Part shown: piece after piece, positions 3,838-24,848 of the stretch
How positions within the stretch are numbered: the stretch's first letter is position 1
How the letters are laid out: each line of letters begins with the position of its first letter
Program-made: the position numbers and the translations under genes
Assembly (NCBI GenBank): GCA_029244935.1
Contig: JAQWQF010000003.1
Span: 1 to 58,810, forward strand
Source: Methylophilaceae bacterium
Lineage (GTDB): Bacteria > Pseudomonadota > Gammaproteobacteria > Burkholderiales > Methylophilaceae
Length of the DNA: 58,810 nucleotides
Reading direction: 5' to 3'
The notes under the pieces: generated by a model
The model's database searches: none
What the model was told of the DNA's origin: nothing
What the model saw: the letters and a program-made list of their open reading frames with translations, nothing else

Positions 3838-4521
3838 ATGTTAGATCCAAATGATTTCGTCGGGGTAAGCTTCTGGCTTTTATCGGCGGCTATGGTAGCG
3901 GCAACGTTTTTTTTCTGGGTAGAAAGAGACAGAGCCGAAGGTAAATGGAAAACATCACTTACAGTTGCTGCAATGGTTACAGGTATAGCAGCAATTCATT
4001 ATTTTTATATGAGAGGTGTGTGGATCAGTACAGGTGATTCACCTACAGTATTTAGATACGTCGATTGGTTGTTAACAGTTCCACTTCAGATTGTCGAATT
4101 CTACTTAATATTAGCAGCAATTGCGGTGGTTGCAGTGTCTGTATTTTGGCGGTTACTTATCGCTTCAGTAGTTATGTTAGTAGCTGGTTATCTTGGTGAA
4201 GTTGGCACAGTAGGTGTTTGGTCTGGTTTCACAGTAGGGATGATCGCTTGGTTATACATTATCTATGAAGTATTTGCAGGTGAAGCTAGCCAAATTAGTG
4301 AAAGCAAGGGAACAGTCGCAAGTAAAAAAGCTTTTAATGCTTTAAGAATTATTGTTACTGTTGGTTGGGCTATTTATCCAATAGGCTACTACATGGGTTA
4401 TGCTGGAAATACAGACGCAGGTACTTTAAACCTTGTCTATAACCTAGCTGACTTTGTTAATAAGATAGCATTTGGAGTAGTTATATGGGCTGCAGCAACA
4501 TCGGGTTCCAAAGCTAGATAA
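3838..4521 (+). CDS. Proteorhodopsin, light-driven proton pump (blue-type Gln tuning residue)
   Basis: A 227-residue seven-helix opsin that uses retinal to pump protons out across the inner membrane. The key residues are in place: His54 (HYFYMRG), and Asp76, Thr80 and Glu87 in RYVDWLLTVPLQIVEFYLIL, forming the DTE pump motif; Lys209 in LADFVNKIAFG binds retinal. The residue matching position 105 of the reference proteorhodopsin is Gln84, which in this family goes with blue absorption, Leu giving green. The usual N-terminal signal segment is missing, so the protein starts right before helix A. It has a strong ribosome site and its own terminator, which suggests high, separate expression. Retinal would come from the downstream crt-blh operon. 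Confidence 0.97.
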   Translation: MLDPNDFVGVSFWLLSAAMVAATFFFWVERDRAEGKWKTSLTVAAMVTGIAAIHYFYMRGVWISTGDSPTVFRYVDWLLTVPLQIVEFYLILAAIAVVAVSVFWRLLIASVVMLVAGYLGEVGTVGVWSGFTVGMIAWLYIIYEVFAGEASQISESKGTVASKKAFNALRIIVTVGWAIYPIGYYMGYAGNTDAGTLNLVYNLADFVNKIAFGVVIWAAATSGSKAR

Positions 4522-4548
4522 AGTTTTTGGTACTTGAATATTAGCTAT

Positions 4549-4581
4549 AAAAAACGCGTCAGAAATGGCGCGTTTTTTTTT
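4549..4581 (+). terminator. Rho-independent terminator between the two opsin genes
   Basis: A hairpin with arms AAAAAACGCG (4549-4558) and CGCGTTTTTTTT (4569-4580) around a 10-base loop, running into a T tract. It lies 27 bases after the proteorhodopsin stop and only about 13 bases before the ribosome site (AGGAGA) of the second opsin. It should end most proteorhodopsin transcripts, leaving the second opsin and crt genes to read-through or an unseen promoter. Confidence 0.85.
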
Positions 4582-4604
4582 AAAAGTACAATCCAGGAGA
4601 TAAG

Positions 4605-5342
4605 ATGGAGGCAGTAAATTTCAACTTAGTTTATAACTCATTGTCTTTTGCTATAGCAACATTTGGTGCGAGTACTGTTTTTTTCTTTGCTCAACGCTCT
4701 CAAGTTGCTCCAGCATATAAAACAGCTATGACTTTGTCAGGCTTAGTATGCTTAATTGCTTTTTATCATTACATAAGAATGTTTGAAAGCTTTAATGATG
4801 CTTTTACATTAATATATGGAGAAGTTGAAGTAACAGGCTCACAATTTAATATTGCTTATCGATATGTTGGATGGTTACTAACCGTACCTTTGCTATTACT
4901 TGAATTAGTTCTTGTAATGCGATTAAGTAAAGAGGAAACATTTTCTAGGGGTACAAAACTTACTGTTGCAGCCATACTAATGGTTATTTTAGGGTACCCT
5001 GGTGAAGGGATGGTTGATGTTGGTCAATTGAATGATCGCTGGATGTATTGGTTGCTAGCAATGATTCCATTTTTATATATTCTTTATAGTTTGGTTGTAG
5101 GACTCGCAAATTCAATTACTAAGCAACCAAAAAATGTTCAAGGATTGGTAAGTAATGCAAGGTGGTTACTTATTATTTCATGGACTTTCTATCCAATAAT
5201 ATATTTAGTTCCAATGATTTACCCGGAGGCATCTTATATAAACATCCAGGTTGGTTATACAATTGCCGATGTAGTCTCAATTGGTATGTTTGGTGTGATG
5301 ATTTATATGATTGCTCAACGTAAATCAGATGCAGGGGCGTAA
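4605..5342 (+). CDS. Lysine-less type-1 opsin homologue (retinal Lys replaced by Ile, proton-acceptor Asp by Gly)
   Basis: A 245-residue seven-helix opsin closer in pattern to xanthorhodopsin-like than to proteorhodopsin. Kept: His55 (FYHYIRM), TM3 RYV-x-WLLTVPL with Thr93 and Glu100, the TM6 pocket (Trp193, Tyr196, Pro197) and TM7 Asp222. Lost: the proton acceptor is Gly89 (codon GGA, 4869-4871) and the residue at the retinal-lysine position in ADVVSIGMFG is Ile226 (codon ATT, 5280-5282). It therefore cannot form the Schiff base or pump by the known mechanism. The frame is intact, with a good AGGAGA ribosome site, and the gene leads the crtE-blh operon. Lysine-less opsins have, as I recall, been reported (called opsin-related proteins or Rh-noK). 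The role here, whether partner, retinal/carotenoid binding or sensing, is unknown. Confidence 0.93.
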   Translation: MEAVNFNLVYNSLSFAIATFGASTVFFFAQRSQVAPAYKTAMTLSGLVCLIAFYHYIRMFESFNDAFTLIYGEVEVTGSQFNIAYRYVGWLLTVPLLLLELVLVMRLSKEETFSRGTKLTVAAILMVILGYPGEGMVDVGQLNDRWMYWLLAMIPFLYILYSLVVGLANSITKQPKNVQGLVSNARWLLIISWTFYPIIYLVPMIYPEASYINIQVGYTIADVVSIGMFGVMIYMIAQRKSDAGA

Positions 5343-5393
5343 TCAAATTGAAATTATTGGTTAAAAAAGACAGCTATATAAAAGGTTTTATAG

Positions 5394-6374
5394 TTGAATA
5401 AGATTATGAAAAATAATTCTTGGGGCGAATCATTTACACCACCCGAAGCAGATAAATTTTTAGATACTGTTAAAAATGAATTTGCTAAAAGCTTTGAGGT
5501 AGAAGATAAATTTTTATCTGCTTGGTTAAATCATCATGGAGAATCTCAAGGTAAATGGCTACGAGCGAGACTTGCATTAGCAACAGGTGGTTTATTAGGT
5601 CTATCCAGTCAAACATCTATAAATTGGGCAGTAGTATGCGAATTAATTCATAGTGCGTCACTACTCCACGATGATGTATGTGATCAAGATTCTCTTAGAA
5701 GAGGGCAAAGTAGTGTCTGGAAAGCATACGGTATATCTGCAGCGATTTGCACAGGTGATTATTTGATTGCAGAGTCATTTAGAAAGATTACTGAAATTGA
5801 GGAGGGCTGGCATCAAACAATTTTGCTGAAATTGTTATCTTGTTCAGTTAAGGAAATCATTTTTGGACAATCTAAAGATGTTAGTTTTGATGTGCTTGAT
5901 ATGTCATGGGATGAGTACATGAAAATGGTAATTAATAAAACATCGCCATTTATAGCATTACCAATGATGGGAATGTTCAAATGTAGGGAATGTTCAATTG
6001 ATGAATGTGATGGGCTTCAAAAAGCATCAAATTACTTAGGTTTGTCTTATCAGTATTTAAATGATGTTGAAAATTTAGTAGGGATTAACCAAGATATTTT
6101 TTCAGATATTTATAAAAGCCATCCAAATGCGATGCTTATTAAGATCTTAGAAAAGTTAGATCTACAGAATAAGTTAAAAATAAAAAAAGAGCCAAAACTA
6201 CTAATTAATTATATTGATAAAAAATCTATCTTAGTGCAAAAAAGTAATATAAATAATTTACTTGAAAATGCGAGAAATCAATTTCATAGAGTTCCTAATG
6301 TTGTTCAGCCTGTTTTGATATCTATTGAAGATGAAATTAATGAGAGATTAGAGAGTCTTATGGAAGGCAGATAA
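5394..6374 (+). CDS. crtE: Geranylgeranyl diphosphate synthase (polyprenyl synthetase family), carotenoid operon
   Basis: A 326-residue polyprenyl synthetase making the C20 precursor for phytoene. The GKWLRARL block (53-60) and the first aspartate motif DDVCD (93-97, followed by RRG) fit the family. The second motif, usually DDxxD, is NDVEN (223-227), with its first and last Asp both replaced by Asn, and the following Lys-rich loop is also altered. The best start is TTG at 5394 with AAAGG 8 bases upstream; an ATG at 5406 is the alternative. It follows the lysine-less opsin by 51 bp and overlaps crtI by 1 base. Since it heads an otherwise complete pathway it is probably active despite the odd motif (inference). 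Confidence 0.88.
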   Translation: MNKIMKNNSWGESFTPPEADKFLDTVKNEFAKSFEVEDKFLSAWLNHHGESQGKWLRARLALATGGLLGLSSQTSINWAVVCELIHSASLLHDDVCDQDSLRRGQSSVWKAYGISAAICTGDYLIAESFRKITEIEEGWHQTILLKLLSCSVKEIIFGQSKDVSFDVLDMSWDEYMKMVINKTSPFIALPMMGMFKCRECSIDECDGLQKASNYLGLSYQYLNDVENLVGINQDIFSDIYKSHPNAMLIKILEKLDLQNKLKIKKEPKLLINYIDKKSILVQKSNINNLLENARNQFHRVPNVVQPVLISIEDEINERLESLMEGR

Positions 6375-7840
6375 TGAAGAGTGTAGCAATTATTGGTGGG
6401 GGGTTAGGGGGAATAGCATCAGCAATTCGCTTTAAATCTAGGGGTTACGAGGTCTCCTTGTATGAAAGATTAGATGAGCTTGGTGGACGTGCTCAAAAAT
6501 TTAGTAAAGATGGTTATATTCACGACGCAGGACCAACAGTAATAACAGCACCATACTTATTCAAAGAATTATTTACTCTTCTAAATGAAAATATCGATAA
6601 TTATGTAACATTCAAACCATTAGATCCTTGGTATAGGTTTTATTTTAATGATGGAACAGGTTTTGATTATGGGCCTAATAGAAAAGGAATGCTTGAACAA
6701 ATTGATCAAATATCACCAAAGGATGTTGACGGATATTTAAGAATGCTAAAACGAGCTGAGGAAATATTTGAGTTGGGTTACGAGAAACTTGCTAGTGAGC
6801 CATTTACTAGAATTTTAAAAATGGTACGTTACGGACCAGACATTATTCGATTAGGAGGATACAAGTCAGTCTATAGTTTTGTTTCTAAATACTTAGAGCA
6901 CCCAAATTTAAGGCAAGCTTTTTCAATTCAGCCATTATTAGTCGGTGGCAATCCTTTTACGACATCTTCAATTTATGCATTGATTCATGCATTAGAACAA
7001 AAGTGGGGAATATCATTTGTTATGGGAGGAACTAATCATCTTGTAAAAGAGCTAAAAAATCTTATGCAGAGGAACGGTATAAATATTCATTATCAGTATG
7101 ACGTTGATGAATTTATTACCAATAAAAATTCAGTACAAAGTATTAAGTTTTTAAATGGGAAAGAAATAAGATCCGATATTGTAGTAAGTAATGCCGATCC
7201 AATTCAGGTTAATAGTGAATTTCTCAGAAATAGTAAAATATCATGGCACAACCAGATACTAAAAAAATATGCCAAACATTCAATGGGCTTATTTGTATTA
7301 TTTTTTGGTTCAAAAAAACAATATAAAAATGTTGCTCATCATACTATCTGGATGGGACCTAGATATAAGGAATTATTAGATGATATTTTTGATAAGCATC
7401 ATTTGGCTGAAGATTTCTCAATATATCTTCATCGCCCTACAGCTACTGATTCCTCATTCGCACCAGAAGGTCATGATTCATATTATGCACTAGTACCAGT
7501 TCCAAATTTAAAGGGAAATTACAACTGGCATGAAATTAAAGAGAGCTTTTCTGAGAAGATATTAGCTTCATTAGATAAAACTATAATGCCAGGTATATTA
7601 ACTAATGCACTTTCTAAATTCAGTATGACACCAGTAGACTTTAAGAATAATTATCGAACGCCCTATGGAAGTGGCTTTTCTATAGCACCAATCCTGACGC
7701 AATCAGCATGGTTTAGGACACACAATCAGGATGACAAATATAAAAATTTATTTTATGTTGGTGCAGGGACTCATCCAGGAGCAGGTATACCTGGTGTATT
7801 AAATTCAGCAAAAGTAGTCGACAACATAATTCATTTATGA
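6374..7840 (+). CDS. crtI: Phytoene desaturase
   Basis: A 488-residue FAD-dependent desaturase that turns phytoene into lycopene. The N terminus carries the dinucleotide-binding GGGLGG motif (8-13) with an acidic strand end (ER, about 31-32) and the GGRAQ segment. The C terminus has the family signature GAGTHPGAGIPGV. Length matches bacterial CrtI. The start codon overlaps the crtE stop (TAATG) and its stop overlaps the crtB start (ATGA), so translation is coupled. Membrane-associated enzyme of the operon that supplies beta-carotene, and hence retinal, to the neighbouring rhodopsin. Confidence 0.96.
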   Translation: MKSVAIIGGGLGGIASAIRFKSRGYEVSLYERLDELGGRAQKFSKDGYIHDAGPTVITAPYLFKELFTLLNENIDNYVTFKPLDPWYRFYFNDGTGFDYGPNRKGMLEQIDQISPKDVDGYLRMLKRAEEIFELGYEKLASEPFTRILKMVRYGPDIIRLGGYKSVYSFVSKYLEHPNLRQAFSIQPLLVGGNPFTTSSIYALIHALEQKWGISFVMGGTNHLVKELKNLMQRNGINIHYQYDVDEFITNKNSVQSIKFLNGKEIRSDIVVSNADPIQVNSEFLRNSKISWHNQILKKYAKHSMGLFVLFFGSKKQYKNVAHHTIWMGPRYKELLDDIFDKHHLAEDFSIYLHRPTATDSSFAPEGHDSYYALVPVPNLKGNYNWHEIKESFSEKILASLDKTIMPGILTNALSKFSMTPVDFKNNYRTPYGSGFSIAPILTQSAWFRTHNQDDKYKNLFYVGAGTHPGAGIPGVLNSAKVVDNIIHL

Positions 7841-8691
7841 AAAATCAAGCCCAAATTATCAAAAAATACGGTAAGACCTTTTACTGGGCATCCTTTTTTC
7901 TTGAAAAAAAGTTTAAGTTAAGATTGTTTTCTATTTATGCTTTCTGTAGAGAAATTGATGACATGGTCGATAATAAAAAAGAAAAAGATAATTACATAAA
8001 AAAAAATTTTCAAAAAAAAATAGAAGGGTTTAAGGGTTCAAAAAAAAGCATAAATTCATCCAAAGAGATAATAGGTCAATTTATTTTAGGACAAAAAGGC
8101 GATTTATCTCATAAACAACCAAAGTCACTTAATGAGCTCACTATCTATTGCTACCGAGTTGCTGGGATTGTTGGATTGATGGTTTGTGATGCACTTAATG
8201 TAAAAGATATTAAAATAAGGCACTATGCGATTGATTTAGGTATTGCGATGCAATTAACAAACATATGTAGGGATATAAAAGAAGATTCACATATGGGTCG
8301 AGTATATTTGCCGCAAAACCTAGTTGGAAAATTAAAAGCAGGCGAGGTAGAGTTTCCTAATGAAAATGACTATAAAAAAATTAAGGTGTGTCAAAATAAG
8401 TTGTTAAAAATAGCTGATGATTATTATGCTAGTGCAGAACATGCAATTCCATTTTTACCAGGAAGAACATCACTAGCAATAAAAATAGCAGCTAAACTCT
8501 ACCAAGCCATTGGAAAAAAAATTATCAATAATGATATTTCGTATTTAAAAGGTAGAGCATTTATTACTAAATATGAAAAATTAAAAATAACCTTAACTAA
8601 CATTATCTCAATAAATAAAACCCCTACAAAGATTAACACTCATAATAAGAGATTACATGCTGCTATTATGAATTTACCGGGGGCTCATTAG
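7837..8691 (+). CDS. crtB: Phytoene synthase
   Basis: A 284-residue squalene/phytoene synthase joining two geranylgeranyl diphosphates head to head to give phytoene. Both Mg-binding aspartate motifs are visible: DDMVD (41-45) and DIKED (146-150), the latter followed by the family segment GRVYLP. The gene overlaps crtI by 4 bp and is followed one base later by the TTG start of the cyclase. Codon use is extremely A-rich, with lysine runs, like the rest of this operon. The order crtE-I-B-Y-blh is common for proteorhodopsin-linked retinal clusters. Confidence 0.96.
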   Translation: MKNQAQIIKKYGKTFYWASFFLEKKFKLRLFSIYAFCREIDDMVDNKKEKDNYIKKNFQKKIEGFKGSKKSINSSKEIIGQFILGQKGDLSHKQPKSLNELTIYCYRVAGIVGLMVCDALNVKDIKIRHYAIDLGIAMQLTNICRDIKEDSHMGRVYLPQNLVGKLKAGEVEFPNENDYKKIKVCQNKLLKIADDYYASAEHAIPFLPGRTSLAIKIAAKLYQAIGKKIINNDISYLKGRAFITKYEKLKITLTNIISINKTPTKINTHNKRLHAAIMNLPGAH

Positions 8692-8692
8692 A

Positions 8693-9829
8693 TTGAATAA
8701 AAAATTTGATATTGTTGTTATAGGCGCAGGACTTTCAAGTTTAATGTTTTTATCAAGGTACATTCATAATAATAAAAATCAGTCTATTTTATTGATTGAA
8801 AAAAATAAGAAAAGAAATATCAATCAGACTTTTTGTATTTGGCAGGGTCCTGACTTAATTGATATAAAAAAATTATATAATTTAAGAGCAAGGCATGTAT
8901 GGAATAAAATACGGGTGTCATATGGAGATGAAAATGTTGATAAAGATATTGCTCCATATTCCTATGAATGCTTTGATGGTAATGAAACTCTTACAAATTT
9001 ATTAAATCAGTGCAAAGGAAAAATTACATTTAGACGAGGGTTGGACGTAAAAAAAATTAAGAATCATAAAGATTCAGTTGAAATTATTACTAGCAAAGGA
9101 TCTATAAAAACTAAATATGTTATTGATAGTCGAAATAAAATTTCAAAGAAGCAGTATGCATATGCTCCTAATCTCCATCAGGCATTTATTGGTAATGAAA
9201 TAATAGTTGAAAAAGAAAAATTTAATCCTGACTTGCTCACACTAATGAAATTTTCTAGAAATAAAAAAGATATTGAATTTACTTATATTCTTCCTTTTTC
9301 TAAGAAAAAAGCTTTAGTTGAGACAACATTATTTGCAAAGAACCCATCTCTTAATAATATTCAAAAAATACATAATCAGTCACTTATAAAACATAGTAAA
9401 TTTAGGTCTATTAAAAAAGAAAGCGGAATTCTGCCAATGATTTTAGGTAGAAATTATATCGATAATAATATTATACCTATTGGTTTATCTGCAGGTATGG
9501 CAAGGCCATCTACTGGGTATTCAATGATGAGGATTGCTCAATGGATTAATTCTATAGAAAATCATAAAATTGAGAGTGATAATATTAAGCGATTTGAATT
9601 TAGGCCAAATAAACTACTAGAATGGTTCGATAGTATTTTTCTTACCGTATGTTATTTTTGGCCTCAAAAAGCACCTATATTATTTATGAGATTGTTTAGC
9701 AATGCTGATATTAAATCTATTATTAGATTTATGTCTGATGCCCCTACAATAAGAGATATTATTTTTATAATCTTGAGTATGCCCAAAAAACTTATGATTC
9801 ATGGCCTTATTAAAAAATATGTTAAATAA
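8693..9829 (+). CDS. crtY: Lycopene beta-cyclase
   Basis: A 378-residue flavoprotein of the CrtY type, converting lycopene to beta-carotene. It starts with a Rossmann motif (DIVVIGAGLSSLMF) and has the TFCIW segment near residue 46 that CrtY proteins use in place of simple oxidoreductase motifs. The start is TTG at 8693, one base after the crtB stop; no ATG lies nearby in frame. The 3' end overlaps the blh start. Lys/Asn/Ile-rich composition reflects the low GC content of the operon. Confidence 0.92.
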   Translation: MNKKFDIVVIGAGLSSLMFLSRYIHNNKNQSILLIEKNKKRNINQTFCIWQGPDLIDIKKLYNLRARHVWNKIRVSYGDENVDKDIAPYSYECFDGNETLTNLLNQCKGKITFRRGLDVKKIKNHKDSVEIITSKGSIKTKYVIDSRNKISKKQYAYAPNLHQAFIGNEIIVEKEKFNPDLLTLMKFSRNKKDIEFTYILPFSKKKALVETTLFAKNPSLNNIQKIHNQSLIKHSKFRSIKKESGILPMILGRNYIDNNIIPIGLSAGMARPSTGYSMMRIAQWINSIENHKIESDNIKRFEFRPNKLLEWFDSIFLTVCYFWPQKAPILFMRLFSNADIKSIIRFMSDAPTIRDIIFIILSMPKKLMIHGLIKKYVK

Positions 9830-10703
9830 AGTAATTATTCATCAGCAGATATTTATTATATTTTCATTATTTATATTAATCATTAATTTTTTTTCAAACA
9901 TTATCAATAGCTACACTAATTATTTAATCTGGATAGCCCTTTTTTTTGTCAGCACACTTGGTGTTAGTCATGGTGCATTAGATGGTAAATTAATATGGCG
10001 AGGAATAAATAAAAATTTCCAAAGAATTATCTTATTCACTTTATATTTAATTTTGGTATTGTTAGGTTGGTCTCTATGGGTTAGTTATCCCTCAATTGGA
10101 TTATCAGTATTACTTATTATGTCAATTTTTCATTTTGGTAATTCTGATTTAAAATTTCTTAAATTATCTGACATAAATATTAGGTTGTCTTGGGGTTTCG
10201 GTATGACTTTCATGCCAATTTTATTTAAACGAGAGGTAGTTGATTCAATTTTTTACAATTTAATCGGAATCAATATACCTGATTTCTTGATGGTTATTAT
10301 TTATTGTATTTTAATTCTCAGTATCATCAGGATATATTTTAGTCTCATAAATAATGTTATCAATTCCAAAGCGAATGTAGTTTGGTTTAGAGATAAAAAT
10401 GTATTATTGATTCTTGAACTTACATCTCTAGTTATTCTCTCGTGCTTTACCCATCCGTTTATTTGGTTTGCAATTTACTTTTGTGGGTTACATGGAATTC
10501 GTTCTTTAATTGATTCTAATTTCAATTGGAAAATTGATCTAAAATGGCTTTCTTTATTTACTCTTCCAGTATTGGTATTTATTGGATTTACGTATGGAAG
10601 ATATTGGAATGTAAATTCATATTCCTTAATATTTCCTGTTTTAGGATCTTTGACTATTGCTCATATGTCGTTACCTTCTCTATTGAAATTTATAAAAAGA
10701 TAG
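9801..10703 (+). CDS. blh: Beta-carotene 15,15'-dioxygenase, Brp/Blh family (retinal-forming)
   Basis: A 300-residue polytopic membrane protein that cleaves beta-carotene into two retinals. The four iron-ligand histidines of the family can be placed: His57 in GVSHGALDG, His111 in FHFGNSD, His218 in the segment FTHPF and His231 in GLHGIRSL. It has about seven hydrophobic helices. The ATG at 9801 overlaps crtY by 29 bp; an in-frame ATG at 9819 would give an 11-bp overlap and is equally possible. As the last gene of the carotenoid operon it completes retinal synthesis for the proteorhodopsin. Confidence 0.94.
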   Translation: MALLKNMLNKVIIHQQIFIIFSLFILIINFFSNIINSYTNYLIWIALFFVSTLGVSHGALDGKLIWRGINKNFQRIILFTLYLILVLLGWSLWVSYPSIGLSVLLIMSIFHFGNSDLKFLKLSDINIRLSWGFGMTFMPILFKREVVDSIFYNLIGINIPDFLMVIIYCILILSIIRIYFSLINNVINSKANVVWFRDKNVLLILELTSLVILSCFTHPFIWFAIYFCGLHGIRSLIDSNFNWKIDLKWLSLFTLPVLVFIGFTYGRYWNVNSYSLIFPVLGSLTIAHMSLPSLLKFIKR

Positions 10704-10711
10704 GCCAATTT

Positions 10712-11695
10712 TTACTCTATTATTTTATTAATTTTTTGTGCCATCATAAGTCCAGCCTCAAAAGCATTTTCAACTCTCCCATGAGTTAACCAGTCTCCAC
10801 AAGAGGCAAGCCTATTATCATAATCTATGAGTAAATCTGATTTAGTCTGCCTACTTATATTTGCATATCGCCAAGCTTGAAGGTCAATATGCTCTGCAAT
10901 ACTAGTATCTTTACCTATAATTCTTGATGTTTCATTGTTTAGATAAGTAATAATGCTTTGAGGATCGTCAGATAAATGATCTTCAGCCCATGCATTTGTT
11001 GAGTTAATTAACATTGAAAATGATTGTTTTCTGTCTGGTTTAGAGTTATTAATGGATATCCAACTTATATCTGCATCTCTTATAAGAGCTGAATCCCATA
11101 ATAATGAAATAGGCTTCTTAAATCCAAGCATTAAGGAAAAACAACCTACCATTTTTCTAGTAAGCAAATCATTATGATATTTAAAGTATGTTGGGAGAAT
11201 TTCTGCTGACTGAATTGGGGGAGCAGTTGATATGACCCAATCAAATCTTCCTAAATTATTTGAATTATTATCAAATAACTCCCAATTATTAGTGTTACGA
11301 ACTATTTTATTTACTTTAGTATTTAATTTTATATTAAGTTCCTTGGATAAATATTGAGCAATTGAATTCATCCCAGGGGCACCAACATAATGTGGATATT
11401 CTGCGTTCCAAGTAATAATCCTTAATATCTTATTATCTATGAATTCGGCAAAGCGAGCATCCCAGCGTTTGATTATATTTTTTTTGATTAATGGTTTGAT
11501 GAAATTCTTAAAATTTGTACCTTTAGCGGTAAAAAATTGAGCACCATGATCAAACTCATATGGTGGAGAGCGACGTAAAGCCATTCTTCCACCTACGCCG
11601 CGGCTTTTTTCAAAGATTGATACTGCAGCAATTTTTTTAAGATTTTGTGCAATGGCTATAGATGAAATTCCTGCACCAACAATAGCAATTCTCAT
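10712..11695 (-). CDS. Renalase-like FAD-dependent amine oxidase/oxidoreductase
   Basis: A 327-residue flavoprotein with an N-terminal FAD-binding motif (GAGISS, 7-12), an acidic FEKSRGVGGRM segment and a conserved FDHGAQFFTA block that marks the bacterial renalase-like group. The C terminus has the usual flavin-contacting GDW-x4-GRVENAFEAG stretch. The family includes oxidases of dihydro-NAD(P) isomers, but the substrate here is not shown. It converges on blh with only 8 bp between stops, so it is not part of the crt operon, though it could be mistaken for a carotenoid desaturase by its fold. Confidence 0.82.
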   Translation of the reverse strand: MRIAIVGAGISSIAIAQNLKKIAAVSIFEKSRGVGGRMALRRSPPYEFDHGAQFFTAKGTNFKNFIKPLIKKNIIKRWDARFAEFIDNKILRIITWNAEYPHYVGAPGMNSIAQYLSKELNIKLNTKVNKIVRNTNNWELFDNNSNNLGRFDWVISTAPPIQSAEILPTYFKYHNDLLTRKMVGCFSLMLGFKKPISLLWDSALIRDADISWISINNSKPDRKQSFSMLINSTNAWAEDHLSDDPQSIITYLNNETSRIIGKDTSIAEHIDLQAWRYANISRQTKSDLLIDYDNRLASCGDWLTHGRVENAFEAGLMMAQKINKIIE

Positions 11696-23432: not shown

Positions 23433-24848
23433 TTATTTCTTTGATGAATAAATATCTAAAGCCTTTATTCTTTGCTCAGAATGATTAACTATTGGCATTG
23501 GATAATCTACCCCTAGATTAATTTTTCGACCTATTAAAGCACCTTTTTTTACCTCCCAAGGCTCGTGAATTTCACTTGCAGATAAAGTACTGATTTCTGG
23601 TACATACTTCTTAATAAATTTACCCTCTGAGTCAAATTTTTTGGATTGTAGAGTTGGGTTAAAAATTCGAAACCATGGCTGGGCATCACAACCAGTTGAC
23701 GCAGCCCATTGCCAACCACCATTATTAGCTGAAAAGTCGAAATCAATTAATTTCTCTGCAAAATAAGCTTCTCCCCACCTCCAGTCTATTAATAAGTCTT
23801 TCACCAGAAATGAAGCTGCTATCATTCTTAATCTATTATGCATAAAACCAGTTGTATTTAATTGTCGCATTGCAGCATCAATTATTGGGTAGCCAGTCAT
23901 TCCCTCTTTCCAGGCCATGAAATATTCAGGGTTATTTTCAAATTTAAGATCGTTATATTTTAATTTGAAAGCTTTACCTTCATTTATGTGCGGGAAATTA
24001 AATAAAATTTGAAAATAAAAGTCTCGCCATATTAATTCACTTAGCCAAACAGAGGCGCCTTCCGATGAGGCCTCTAATGCGACTTTTGCTAGTTCCCTTA
24101 TTGAGACTGTTCCAAACCGATTATGGACTGATAAGTAAGAAATGCCTTTTATGCTTGGGAAATTTCTTTTAATTCCGTAATCATGAATTCTTTTTTTAAA
24201 GTCATCAATTAATAATTTCCCTCCATCTTCTCCTATTGGGATTGGTAAACTTTTTAAATTTGATTCTTTAAATCCAATATCTTCAAGTTTCAGCATAGAC
24301 ATTGGATTAAGTTTTGCATAATTTTTGCTTAATGCTTCACAGTCAAATTGATTAATTCCTTCAAAAAATATTTTCTTAAGGTGACTATTTTTGTATGGTG
24401 TAAAAACACTATAAGGAGTTCCGGACTGAGTTAAAATTTCATTTTCTTCGAAAAGAACCTGATCTTTATATTGAAAGCATTCTATTTTTAATTTGTTAAT
24501 TATTTCAGTATCTCTTTTTCTTGCGTATGCTTCGTAATCTTTATTTATGTATAGGGAATCACATTCATAATCCTTTATAAGTTCTGGAATTATTTCCTTA
24601 GGATCTCCATATTTAACAATTAGATCTGAATCAAATTTATTAAGTTGTTTTTTTATTTGAAGGAGTGACTCCCAAATAAACTCGACTCTTTGATCTTTTT
24701 TATTTTCAAGGGCTTGTAAAATATTTGAATCAAAAATAAATGTGCAATGAACAGAAGTGGACTCATTGAGCGCATGGAACAGGGCGGCATTATCATATAA
24801 TCTGAGATCCCTTCTTAGCCATAACAAGCTTTTATTAAATTTATTCAC
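23433..24848 (-). CDS. phrB: Deoxyribodipyrimidine photolyase (CPD class I)
   Basis: A 471-residue cryptochrome/photolyase protein that repairs UV pyrimidine dimers with blue light using FAD. The N-terminal antenna domain starts LLWLRRDLRLYDNAALFHAL (9-28). The FAD domain has WLSELIWRDFYFQIL, GYPIIDAAMRQLNTTGFMHN and the C-terminal NNGGWQWAASTGCDAQPWFRIFNP region (written here in parts), with FDSEGKFI(K)KYVPE. These fit class I CPD photolyases. It overlaps rlmH by 8 bp. A photolyase fits a sunlit surface-water lifestyle, as does the rhodopsin locus. Confidence 0.93.
   Translation of the reverse strand: MNKFNKSLLWLRRDLRLYDNAALFHALNESTSVHCTFIFDSNILQALENKKDQRVEFIWESLLQIKKQLNKFDSDLIVKYGDPKEIIPELIKDYECDSLYINKDYEAYARKRDTEIINKLKIECFQYKDQVLFEENEILTQSGTPYSVFTPYKNSHLKKIFFEGINQFDCEALSKNYAKLNPMSMLKLEDIGFKESNLKSLPIPIGEDGGKLLIDDFKKRIHDYGIKRNFPSIKGISYLSVHNRFGTVSIRELAKVALEASSEGASVWLSELIWRDFYFQILFNFPHINEGKAFKLKYNDLKFENNPEYFMAWKEGMTGYPIIDAAMRQLNTTGFMHNRLRMIAASFLVKDLLIDWRWGEAYFAEKLIDFDFSANNGGWQWAASTGCDAQPWFRIFNPTLQSKKFDSEGKFIKKYVPEISTLSASEIHEPWEVKKGALIGRKINLGVDYPMPIVNHSEQRIKALDIYSSKK

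Follow-up and report, generated by a model that had tools for sequence, protein, structure and literature searches.

A conserved opsin without the retinal lysine heads the retinal-synthesis genes in one clade of Methylophilaceae

The question

Why should a bacterium keep, directly in front of its genes for retinal synthesis, an opsin that has lost both the lysine that holds retinal and the acid that takes the Schiff-base proton? The question is raised by a gene of a Methylophilaceae bacterium (GCA_029244935.1, contig JAQWQF010000003.1), found in a stretch of 58,810 nucleotides that was analysed as a whole and is called the window here. The comparisons described below indicate that this is an authentic, selected and, as judged from its sequence, non-pumping opsin, belonging to a kind that is known but unexplained.

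The opsin gene and its diagnostic residues

The gene (4605..5342, forward strand) encodes 245 amino acids and was assigned to the xanthorhodopsin type from its open frame, a Pfam match, an alignment to xanthorhodopsin (3ddl) and a fold model. A ribosome-binding site, AGGAG at 4595..4599 on the same strand, was read from the sequence 5' of the ATG. The Pfam model Bac_rhodopsin (PF01036) matches residues 14-236 (2e-32), and the closest solved relative by sequence is 3ddl (4.7e-61). In the alignment to 3ddl, the proton-acceptor Asp of TM3 falls on Gly89 (codon GGA, 4869-4871) and the retinal Lys of TM7 on Ile226 (codon ATT, 5280-5282), and none of the lysines that the protein does have (39, 109, 118, 173, 176 and 240) is at a pocket position. 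The first-pass annotation, a reading of the window's sequence that preceded this work, was therefore right about both replacements as well as about the absence of a frameshift and the good ribosome site. A lysine masked by a sequence error or by a slip of the alignment was ruled out by the 3ddl alignment and by the 13 genomes found to carry the gene: a read error would have had to alter two bases to turn Lys into ATT, and it would not explain why both residues are missing from 12 other genomes as well.

Twelve of the 13 lysine-less copies have Ile at site 226 and one has Leu; at site 89, 11 have Gly and two have Ser. Asp and Lys are present, by contrast, in 27 of 27 close relatives. The same annotation had held that everything else of a working opsin was kept. 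This stands for His55, Thr93, Trp193, Tyr196, Pro197 and Asp222, which are found, like Arg86, in all 13 copies, but it does not stand fully for the carboxylate donor of TM3, since site 100 is Glu in the window opsin and in 10 of the 13 copies and Gln in the other three. Trp149, also present in 13/13, occupies the position of Gly156, the residue that opens the antenna site in xanthorhodopsin, and with Trp in place of this Gly a carotenoid antenna of the xanthorhodopsin type is unlikely.

Nor is the change confined to the two residues of the retinal chemistry, as had been proposed. The 13 lysine-less and 27 Lys-bearing rows have no residue in common at 18 sites (83, 89, 135, 137, 141, 142, 148, 162, 169, 187, 189, 201, 206, 207, 210, 211, 225 and 226), including Ala225->Ser and Trp148->Tyr, although the sites in loops with gaps vary with the alignment and with which rows have a letter at them. 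Many of the 18 (135, 137, 141, 142, 206, 207, 210 and 211) lie in loops that, by the topology of the family, are presumably extracellular. Such changes may have altered the surface of the protein or closed the proton exit.

An AlphaFold2 model made with 36 related sequences (pLDDT 88.9, pTM 0.85) predicts the seven-helix fold of type 1 rhodopsins, with a TM score of 0.94 to psXR (9wfa). In the PDB it is matched best, at TM 0.89-0.94 on the query, by psXR 9wfa, xanthorhodopsin 3ddl, Kin4B8 and Gloeobacter rhodopsin, and xanthorhodopsins are thus the nearest solved relatives both by sequence and by fold. Taking these observations together, we consider it almost certain that the window opsin is at once derived from xanthorhodopsins, of the published Rh-noK kind discussed below, and blind to light through a Schiff base.

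Distribution of the lysine-less opsin

The genus concerned, which we take to be the marine OM43 lineage of methylotrophs (lineage name as in PMC6794327), was represented by 31 genomes. Thirteen of them have a proteorhodopsin of the window type, and all 13 also have the lysine-less second opsin, with an open frame in every case. Another 13 have a second opsin that bears the Lys, one of them (G004) as a fragment that covers the Lys site but not the Asp site, and five have neither opsin. The window-type proteorhodopsin was not found in the 13 Lys-bearing genomes, only five of which are single contigs. Where both genes occur they are adjacent in 12 of 13 genomes, and in the remaining one they lie on two contig ends. 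At one locus, L034:11773-15991 (FRAM18_bin317), the frames of crtI, crtY and blh are each broken into several pieces and crtB is matched only in part, perhaps through sequencing errors, while both opsins are open.

A second genus of the Methylophilaceae (g15 hereafter), which from the gene order described in PMC6794327 is probably Ca. Methylopumilus, retains Lys and Asp in 13/13 second-opsin rows. Two of its loci are irregular, through real decay or assembly error: L076 combines a proteorhodopsin that has an in-frame internal gap with a second opsin bearing Gln at the Glu100 site, and in L077 a stop breaks the second opsin. A loss common to all second opsins of the family was rejected, given that Lys is kept in the 13 g15 rows and in 12/12 further full rows of the genus. 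The conservation that the first-pass annotation had proposed to look for in Methylophilaceae consequently holds in part: relatives within the clade keep the gene order and both substitutions, but other close Methylophilaceae retain Asp and Lys, and the loss therefore belongs to one clade of the genus.

A wider search returned 37 loci in genome_contigs, namely 11 lysine-less, 23 with Lys, two cut before the site and one proteorhodopsin. The 11 lysine-less loci, labelled Methylophilaceae, Methylophilales, Nitrosomonadales or Methylobacillus, are all among the 13 genomes of the genus and are not additional cases. No relative of the lysine-less opsin was found in viral_contigs or phages, and a viral or phage origin was rejected on this ground. 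The same type of tandem, with Asp and Lys intact, is present in two gammaproteobacterial genomes (one of them Cellvibrionales bacterium UBA4435) among the 112 of the family search at E 1e-40.

The neighbouring pump, a conserved hairpin and the retinal genes

The gene upstream (3838..4521, forward strand) encodes a proteorhodopsin of 227 amino acids (Pfam Bac_rhodopsin, 8.7e-48) with the Asp-Thr-Glu pump motif and the TM7 Lys, and the pump-motif residues are intact in the proteorhodopsins of all 13 lysine-less genomes. It has Gln at the colour-tuning (blue-tuning) site; so do the other proteorhodopsins of the 13 genomes and the two gammaproteobacterial ones, and the second opsins of these genomes have Leu there. 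In the window genome, of 1.25 Mb and 95 percent complete, two genes match the Pfam opsin model.

Downstream, all on the forward strand, follow genes for a crtE-like polyprenyl (GGPP) synthase (5394..6374; Pfam polyprenyl_synt, 1.2e-38), a phytoene desaturase of the crtI family (6374..7840; TIGR02734, 530 bits), a crtB-like squalene/phytoene synthase (7837..8691; SQS_PSY, 1.8e-48), a crtY-like lycopene cyclase (8693..9829; Lycopene_cycl, 6.5e-37) and the retinal-making beta-carotene 15,15'-dioxygenase Blh (9801..10703; TIGR03753, 137 bits; Pfam BCD, 1e-22). Pfam agrees with all five assignments and the NCBIfam cut-offs are passed by crtI and blh, the crtE-, crtB- and crtY-like genes scoring under those of the NCBIfam models listed for them. 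The arrangement that had been read from the window, a proteorhodopsin with the complete motif beside an opsin that leads crtE-crtI-crtB-crtY-blh, is thereby borne out. Elsewhere in the window, on the reverse strand, are an amine-oxidase-like flavoprotein gene convergent with blh (10712-11695), two similar adjoining genes of about 300 codons beside a PhyH-like dioxygenase (1047-2857), one of which (1050-1949) matched no Pfam family, and a gene of the DNA photolyase family (23433-24848).

Between the two opsins is a terminator-like hairpin (4550..4581, forward strand) with a stem of 12 pairs (4550-4561/4566-4577) and a GAAA loop, running into a T tract. All 12 pairs are kept in the 12 tandems compared, with none broken, while the rest of the spacer largely drifts; this is conservation without covariation, no pair having changed on both sides. 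The hairpin was not among the sites returned by a generic scan for promoters and terminators, whose hits were no more than chance gives (40 promoter-like sites where 44.1 were expected and three terminator-like where 3.2 were) and which probably missed it because much of the T tract sits within the stem. A different hairpin followed by T is found between the proteorhodopsin and the second opsin in the 12 g15 rows compared, where the spacer of L077 as taken includes the start of its broken gene. The spacer of L054, one of the two gammaproteobacterial tandems, has an inverted repeat followed by T that was recognised by eye.

Since the hairpin separates the two opsins, the lysine-less one heads the retinal operon, and since a conserved element of this kind sets the proteorhodopsin apart, the two proteins should not be expected in equal amounts. 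From this arrangement we infer that the pump would be transcribed mostly alone and the second opsin together with the retinal operon, in smaller amount.

Origin and probable exchange

In a tree of 51 second opsins, from which columns 89 and 226 were left out, the 13 lysine-less rows form one clade (99/99). The two gammaproteobacterial second opsins group with three Lys-bearing OM43 opsins (99/98), and the deep forks of the tree are weak (67/65 and 76/56). In a second tree, of 38 proteorhodopsins with a midpoint root, the two gammaproteobacterial sequences and those from the lysine-less genomes are one set (98/94) and the g15 ones are placed elsewhere. Both gammaproteobacterial loci (L054:9164-16031 and L082) have a proteorhodopsin followed by a Lys-bearing opsin of the xanthorhodopsin type, and L054 continues with crtE-I-B-Y-blh. 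The proteorhodopsin of L054 is 78 percent identical to that of the window, a likeness that points to transfer of the cassette between classes.

As these trees are read here, the lysine-less opsin is derived from a pump opsin with Lys and Asp by one loss at the base of the clade. The simplest reading of the whole would be that a tandem of two working opsins was exchanged between the two classes and that one loss then followed in OM43, an order that is tentative given the low support of the deep forks. Exchange on a smaller scale is suggested by L038 (AH-578-I23), whose lysine-less gene shares about 92 percent of its DNA letters with that of L039 and 78-79 percent with the window's, whereas its flanks (proteorhodopsin, crtE and crtI) are 87-89 percent identical to the window (3838-10700) and 84, 65 and 70 percent to L039. 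This locus seems to be a mosaic in which the opsin gene was exchanged by itself.

Selection on the gene and on the retinal pocket

The lysine-less genes (13 rows) have a ratio omega, estimated in IQ-TREE under GY+F3X4, of 0.076, compared with 0.048 in the proteorhodopsins of the same genomes (13 rows) and 0.034 in the Lys-bearing relatives of the genus (12 rows). For g15 it is 0.061 for the second opsin and 0.040 for the proteorhodopsin (10 rows each, of 13 and 12). Median pairwise NG86 values, taken from pairs with dS of 0.05-1.5, are 0.099 for the lysine-less genes (38/78 pairs), 0.064 for their proteorhodopsins (72/78) and 0.037 for the Lys-bearing genes of the genus (44/66), and 0.059 and 0.065 for the second opsin (33/45) and proteorhodopsin (43/45) of g15. 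The lysine-less gene is under strong purifying selection, which by point estimates is somewhat weaker than that on the working pump of the genus. With this omega and 13/13 frames open, the gene passes the dN/dS check against a decaying pseudogene that had been suggested for it.

For the retinal pocket we used 22 sites, counted without positions 89 and 226, that were mapped from bacteriorhodopsin numbering and matched by motif. Among the 13 lysine-less copies, 20 of these 22 sites never vary, compared with 108 of 210 outside the pocket (p 0.0002). By parsimony only two of 255 changes fall in the pocket, which makes up 22 of 234 sites, where 24 are expected; the chance of two or fewer is 4e-9. 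A pocket relaxed after loss of the retinal chemistry was accordingly rejected, and together with the predicted fold this upholds the earlier claim that fold and pocket are kept. The 27 Lys-bearing relatives have seven of 335 changes in the pocket, which does not differ from the lysine-less clade (p 0.31). Hence the pocket is not relaxed, yet it is not tighter than in pumps, and the comparison shows no constraint above the usual that would prove a ligand. Moreover, the sites that are invariant in a set of 35 Lys-bearing rows are unchanged in the lysine-less clade at 13 of 15 pocket positions and at 42 of 53 others, so that core packing suffices as an explanation. The changes that did occur are mostly near the Schiff base: sites 89 and 226 and Ala225->Ser in all copies, Tyr56->His in four and Glu100->Gln in three. 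Pocket site 127 is changed in one copy.

In the lysine-less and Lys-bearing sets alike, conservation is highest in helices A, B and C. Helices A and B have about 0.4 changes per site, D and E about 1.3. Conservation of A, the AB loop and B does not differ between the two sets (Fisher p 0.30), and a faster change of helix C in the lysine-less clade (12 versus 7 changes, p 0.098) is not significant. PMC12805836 lists Asn17, Ser20, Phe21, Tyr32, Tyr93, Thr123 and Tyr137 as lipid-groove residues of the actinorhodopsin pentamer. Five of these seven are matched in the lysine-less opsin by residues that are invariant in 13/13 copies (Asn11, Ser14, Phe15, Tyr87 and Tyr131); Tyr32 corresponds to Phe26 and Thr123 to a variable site. 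The five are also invariant across all 51 second-opsin rows, except one cut frame. As the Lys-bearing relatives share both the conserved helices A and B and the conserved groove, neither is special to the lysine-less form.

Possible functions

We tentatively favour, with a probability of about 0.4, a role as a light-blind accessory protomer in oligomers with the proteorhodopsin or with itself. Deprived of the retinal-holding Lys and of the proton-taking acid, the protein would be a seven-helix protomer that keeps the fold, the conserved first helices, the inter-protomer groove and a pocket that is unrelaxed but vacant. Its action would run through oligomers, most likely ones that include the cell's proteorhodopsin or lie next to it, and in this way it might tune how the pump assembles or the membrane around the pump. 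Because the gene heads the crt-blh operon behind the hairpin, the protein would be made in step with retinal synthesis and not with the pump.

Several of the observations above are consistent with this accessory role: Gly/Ser89 and Ile/Leu226 in all 13 copies against Asp and Lys in 27/27 relatives, a single clade in which omega is 0.076 beside 0.048 and 0.034 for the working opsins, adjacency in 12 of 13 genomes, a predicted xanthorhodopsin-type fold, slowly changing helices A and B, and five invariant groove contacts that correspond to those described for actinorhodopsin. The lysine-less opsin also accompanies the proteorhodopsin in 13 of 13 genomes of the genus and no such proteorhodopsin was found in the 13 Lys-bearing ones, although only five of the latter are single contigs, and the pairing represents one evolutionary event, so 13 against 0 are not 13 independent observations. 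A regulatory multimer with the neighbouring pump has already been suggested for Rh-noK, according to PMC10308929. On the other side, Lys-bearing relatives keep helices A and B and the groove equally well, the hairpin speaks against equal amounts of the two opsins, and the g15 genomes and the two gammaproteobacteria have both opsins and yet kept the Lys.

The same groove could instead serve lipids. If light function had become surplus, the pump being supplied by the proteorhodopsin, the protein might persist as a light-independent phospholipid scramblase or a structural membrane protein whose homo-oligomer keeps the inter-protomer lipid groove. A retinal-free pentamer of actinorhodopsin, a relative in the family, is reported to scramble lipids (PMC12805836), and the actinorhodopsin contacts Asn17, Ser20, Phe21, Tyr93 and Tyr137 are the ones that map to invariant residues here. 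We nevertheless regard this as doubtful, given that these residues are just as invariant in the Lys-bearing relatives, that the Tyr32 and Thr123 contacts are unmatched, and that a frozen retinal pocket is not predicted by it. That paper knows no sequence motif for the activity and also gives PtqPR, another bacterial rhodopsin, as a scramblase, so the neighbouring pump may itself have this activity.

Alternatively, retinal or an apocarotenoid might be held non-covalently. The protein would then be a reservoir or would hand the ligand over from Blh to the proteorhodopsin apoprotein, the loss of Lys and Asp keeping the ligand from being trapped. The rarity of pocket changes (2/255 on 22 of 234 sites, 4e-9) and the place of the gene at the head of the crt-blh operon favour this, and since Rh-noK reportedly binds retinal again when the Lys is reintroduced (PMC10308929), the pocket would still fit retinal. 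We consider it rather unlikely all the same: constraint on the pocket is no higher than in pumps (7/335), packing alone could account for it with 42/53 other invariant sites kept beside 13/15 in the pocket, and Trp149 argues against a xanthorhodopsin-type carotenoid antenna. Its narrower form, in which non-covalent retinal is passed from Blh to the proteorhodopsin apoprotein, is by a little the less probable of the two; were it true, the opsin would have turned from a user of its pigment into a chaperone for it. If any of these three leading readings is true, a bacterial opsin has a role that is independent of retinal or binds it non-covalently.

An improbable alternative is a receptor or sensor for a stimulus other than light, as proposed for lysine-less opsin-related proteins of haloarchaea by Becker 2016 (PMC4915679). 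It could account for the 18 separating positions, many of which are presumably extracellular by the topology of the family, but the neighbours are the proteorhodopsin and carotenoid genes, with no transducer among the window genes tested. Finally, a decaying pseudogene or sequence error is scarcely credible and already fails, for despite an omega about twice that of the genus's Lys-bearing relatives (0.076 versus 0.034) and loss of Glu100 in 3/13 copies, the frames of all 13 genomes are open, omega is far below 1, the pocket is frozen and the change of Lys to ATT took two bases.

Comparison with known systems

The xanthorhodopsin-type structures (3ddl, Gloeobacter rhodopsin 6nwd, psXR 9wfa, and Kin4B8 7ytb and 8i2z) have 45-48 percent identity to the window opsin in structural alignment, with TM scores of 0.89-0.94, and differ from it in that the window opsin lacks the Lys and Asp and has Trp149 for Gly156. 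Among opsins without the lysine, the closest in description is Rh-noK of marine betaproteobacteria, which is related to xanthorhodopsin and stands in tandem with a proteorhodopsin (PMC10308929, citing Yamauchi et al. 2019, Photochem Photobiol, doi 10.1111/php.13114), in some cases also beside retinal-synthesis genes (PMC10308929, PMC7714340). The published protein is reported to bind retinal and pump when its lysine is restored (PMC10308929), and Rh-noK accounts for about 600 of 5,558 microbial rhodopsin genes (PMC7714340). The expectation of the first-pass annotation that lysine-less opsins had been described before was correct. The window opsin resembles Rh-noK in its relation to xanthorhodopsin, the missing TM7 Lys and the proteorhodopsin tandem, and nothing in the published descriptions through which they were matched separates the two. 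A demonstrated role for a bacterial lysine-less opsin was not found in the literature searched, which was mostly outside subscription journals.

The xantho-like second opsin of Ca. Methylopumilus has Trp156 and lies between the proteorhodopsin and the retinal cluster, as described by Salcher et al. 2019 (PMC6794327). It shares with the window opsin the exchange of Gly for Trp at position 156 and this location. The same paper gives the DxxxK motif in both rhodopsins and credits marine OM43 with the xantho-like gene alone, a picture that fits the Lys-bearing members of the genus but not the 13 that have a proteorhodopsin and a lysine-less opsin.

The flotillin-associated rhodopsins, as presented in PMC10308929, are likewise an additional paralog in streamlined aquatic bacteria, and most of the freshwater ones are without the lysine. 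However, they belong to the proteorhodopsin family and have a flotillin neighbour, whereas the window opsin is of the xanthorhodopsin type with crt-blh neighbours. The opsin-related proteins of haloarchaea (Becker 2016, PMC4915679) are type 1 and also lack the retinal lysine, in another domain of hosts.

Measured against these systems, the kind itself is known, and what is new is the clade-wide selection, the frozen pocket, the hairpin and the Lys-bearing tandems. The lysine-less clade offers a clean natural case, in which a single loss can be set beside working-form relatives in the same gene order and the pocket is frozen without its chemistry.
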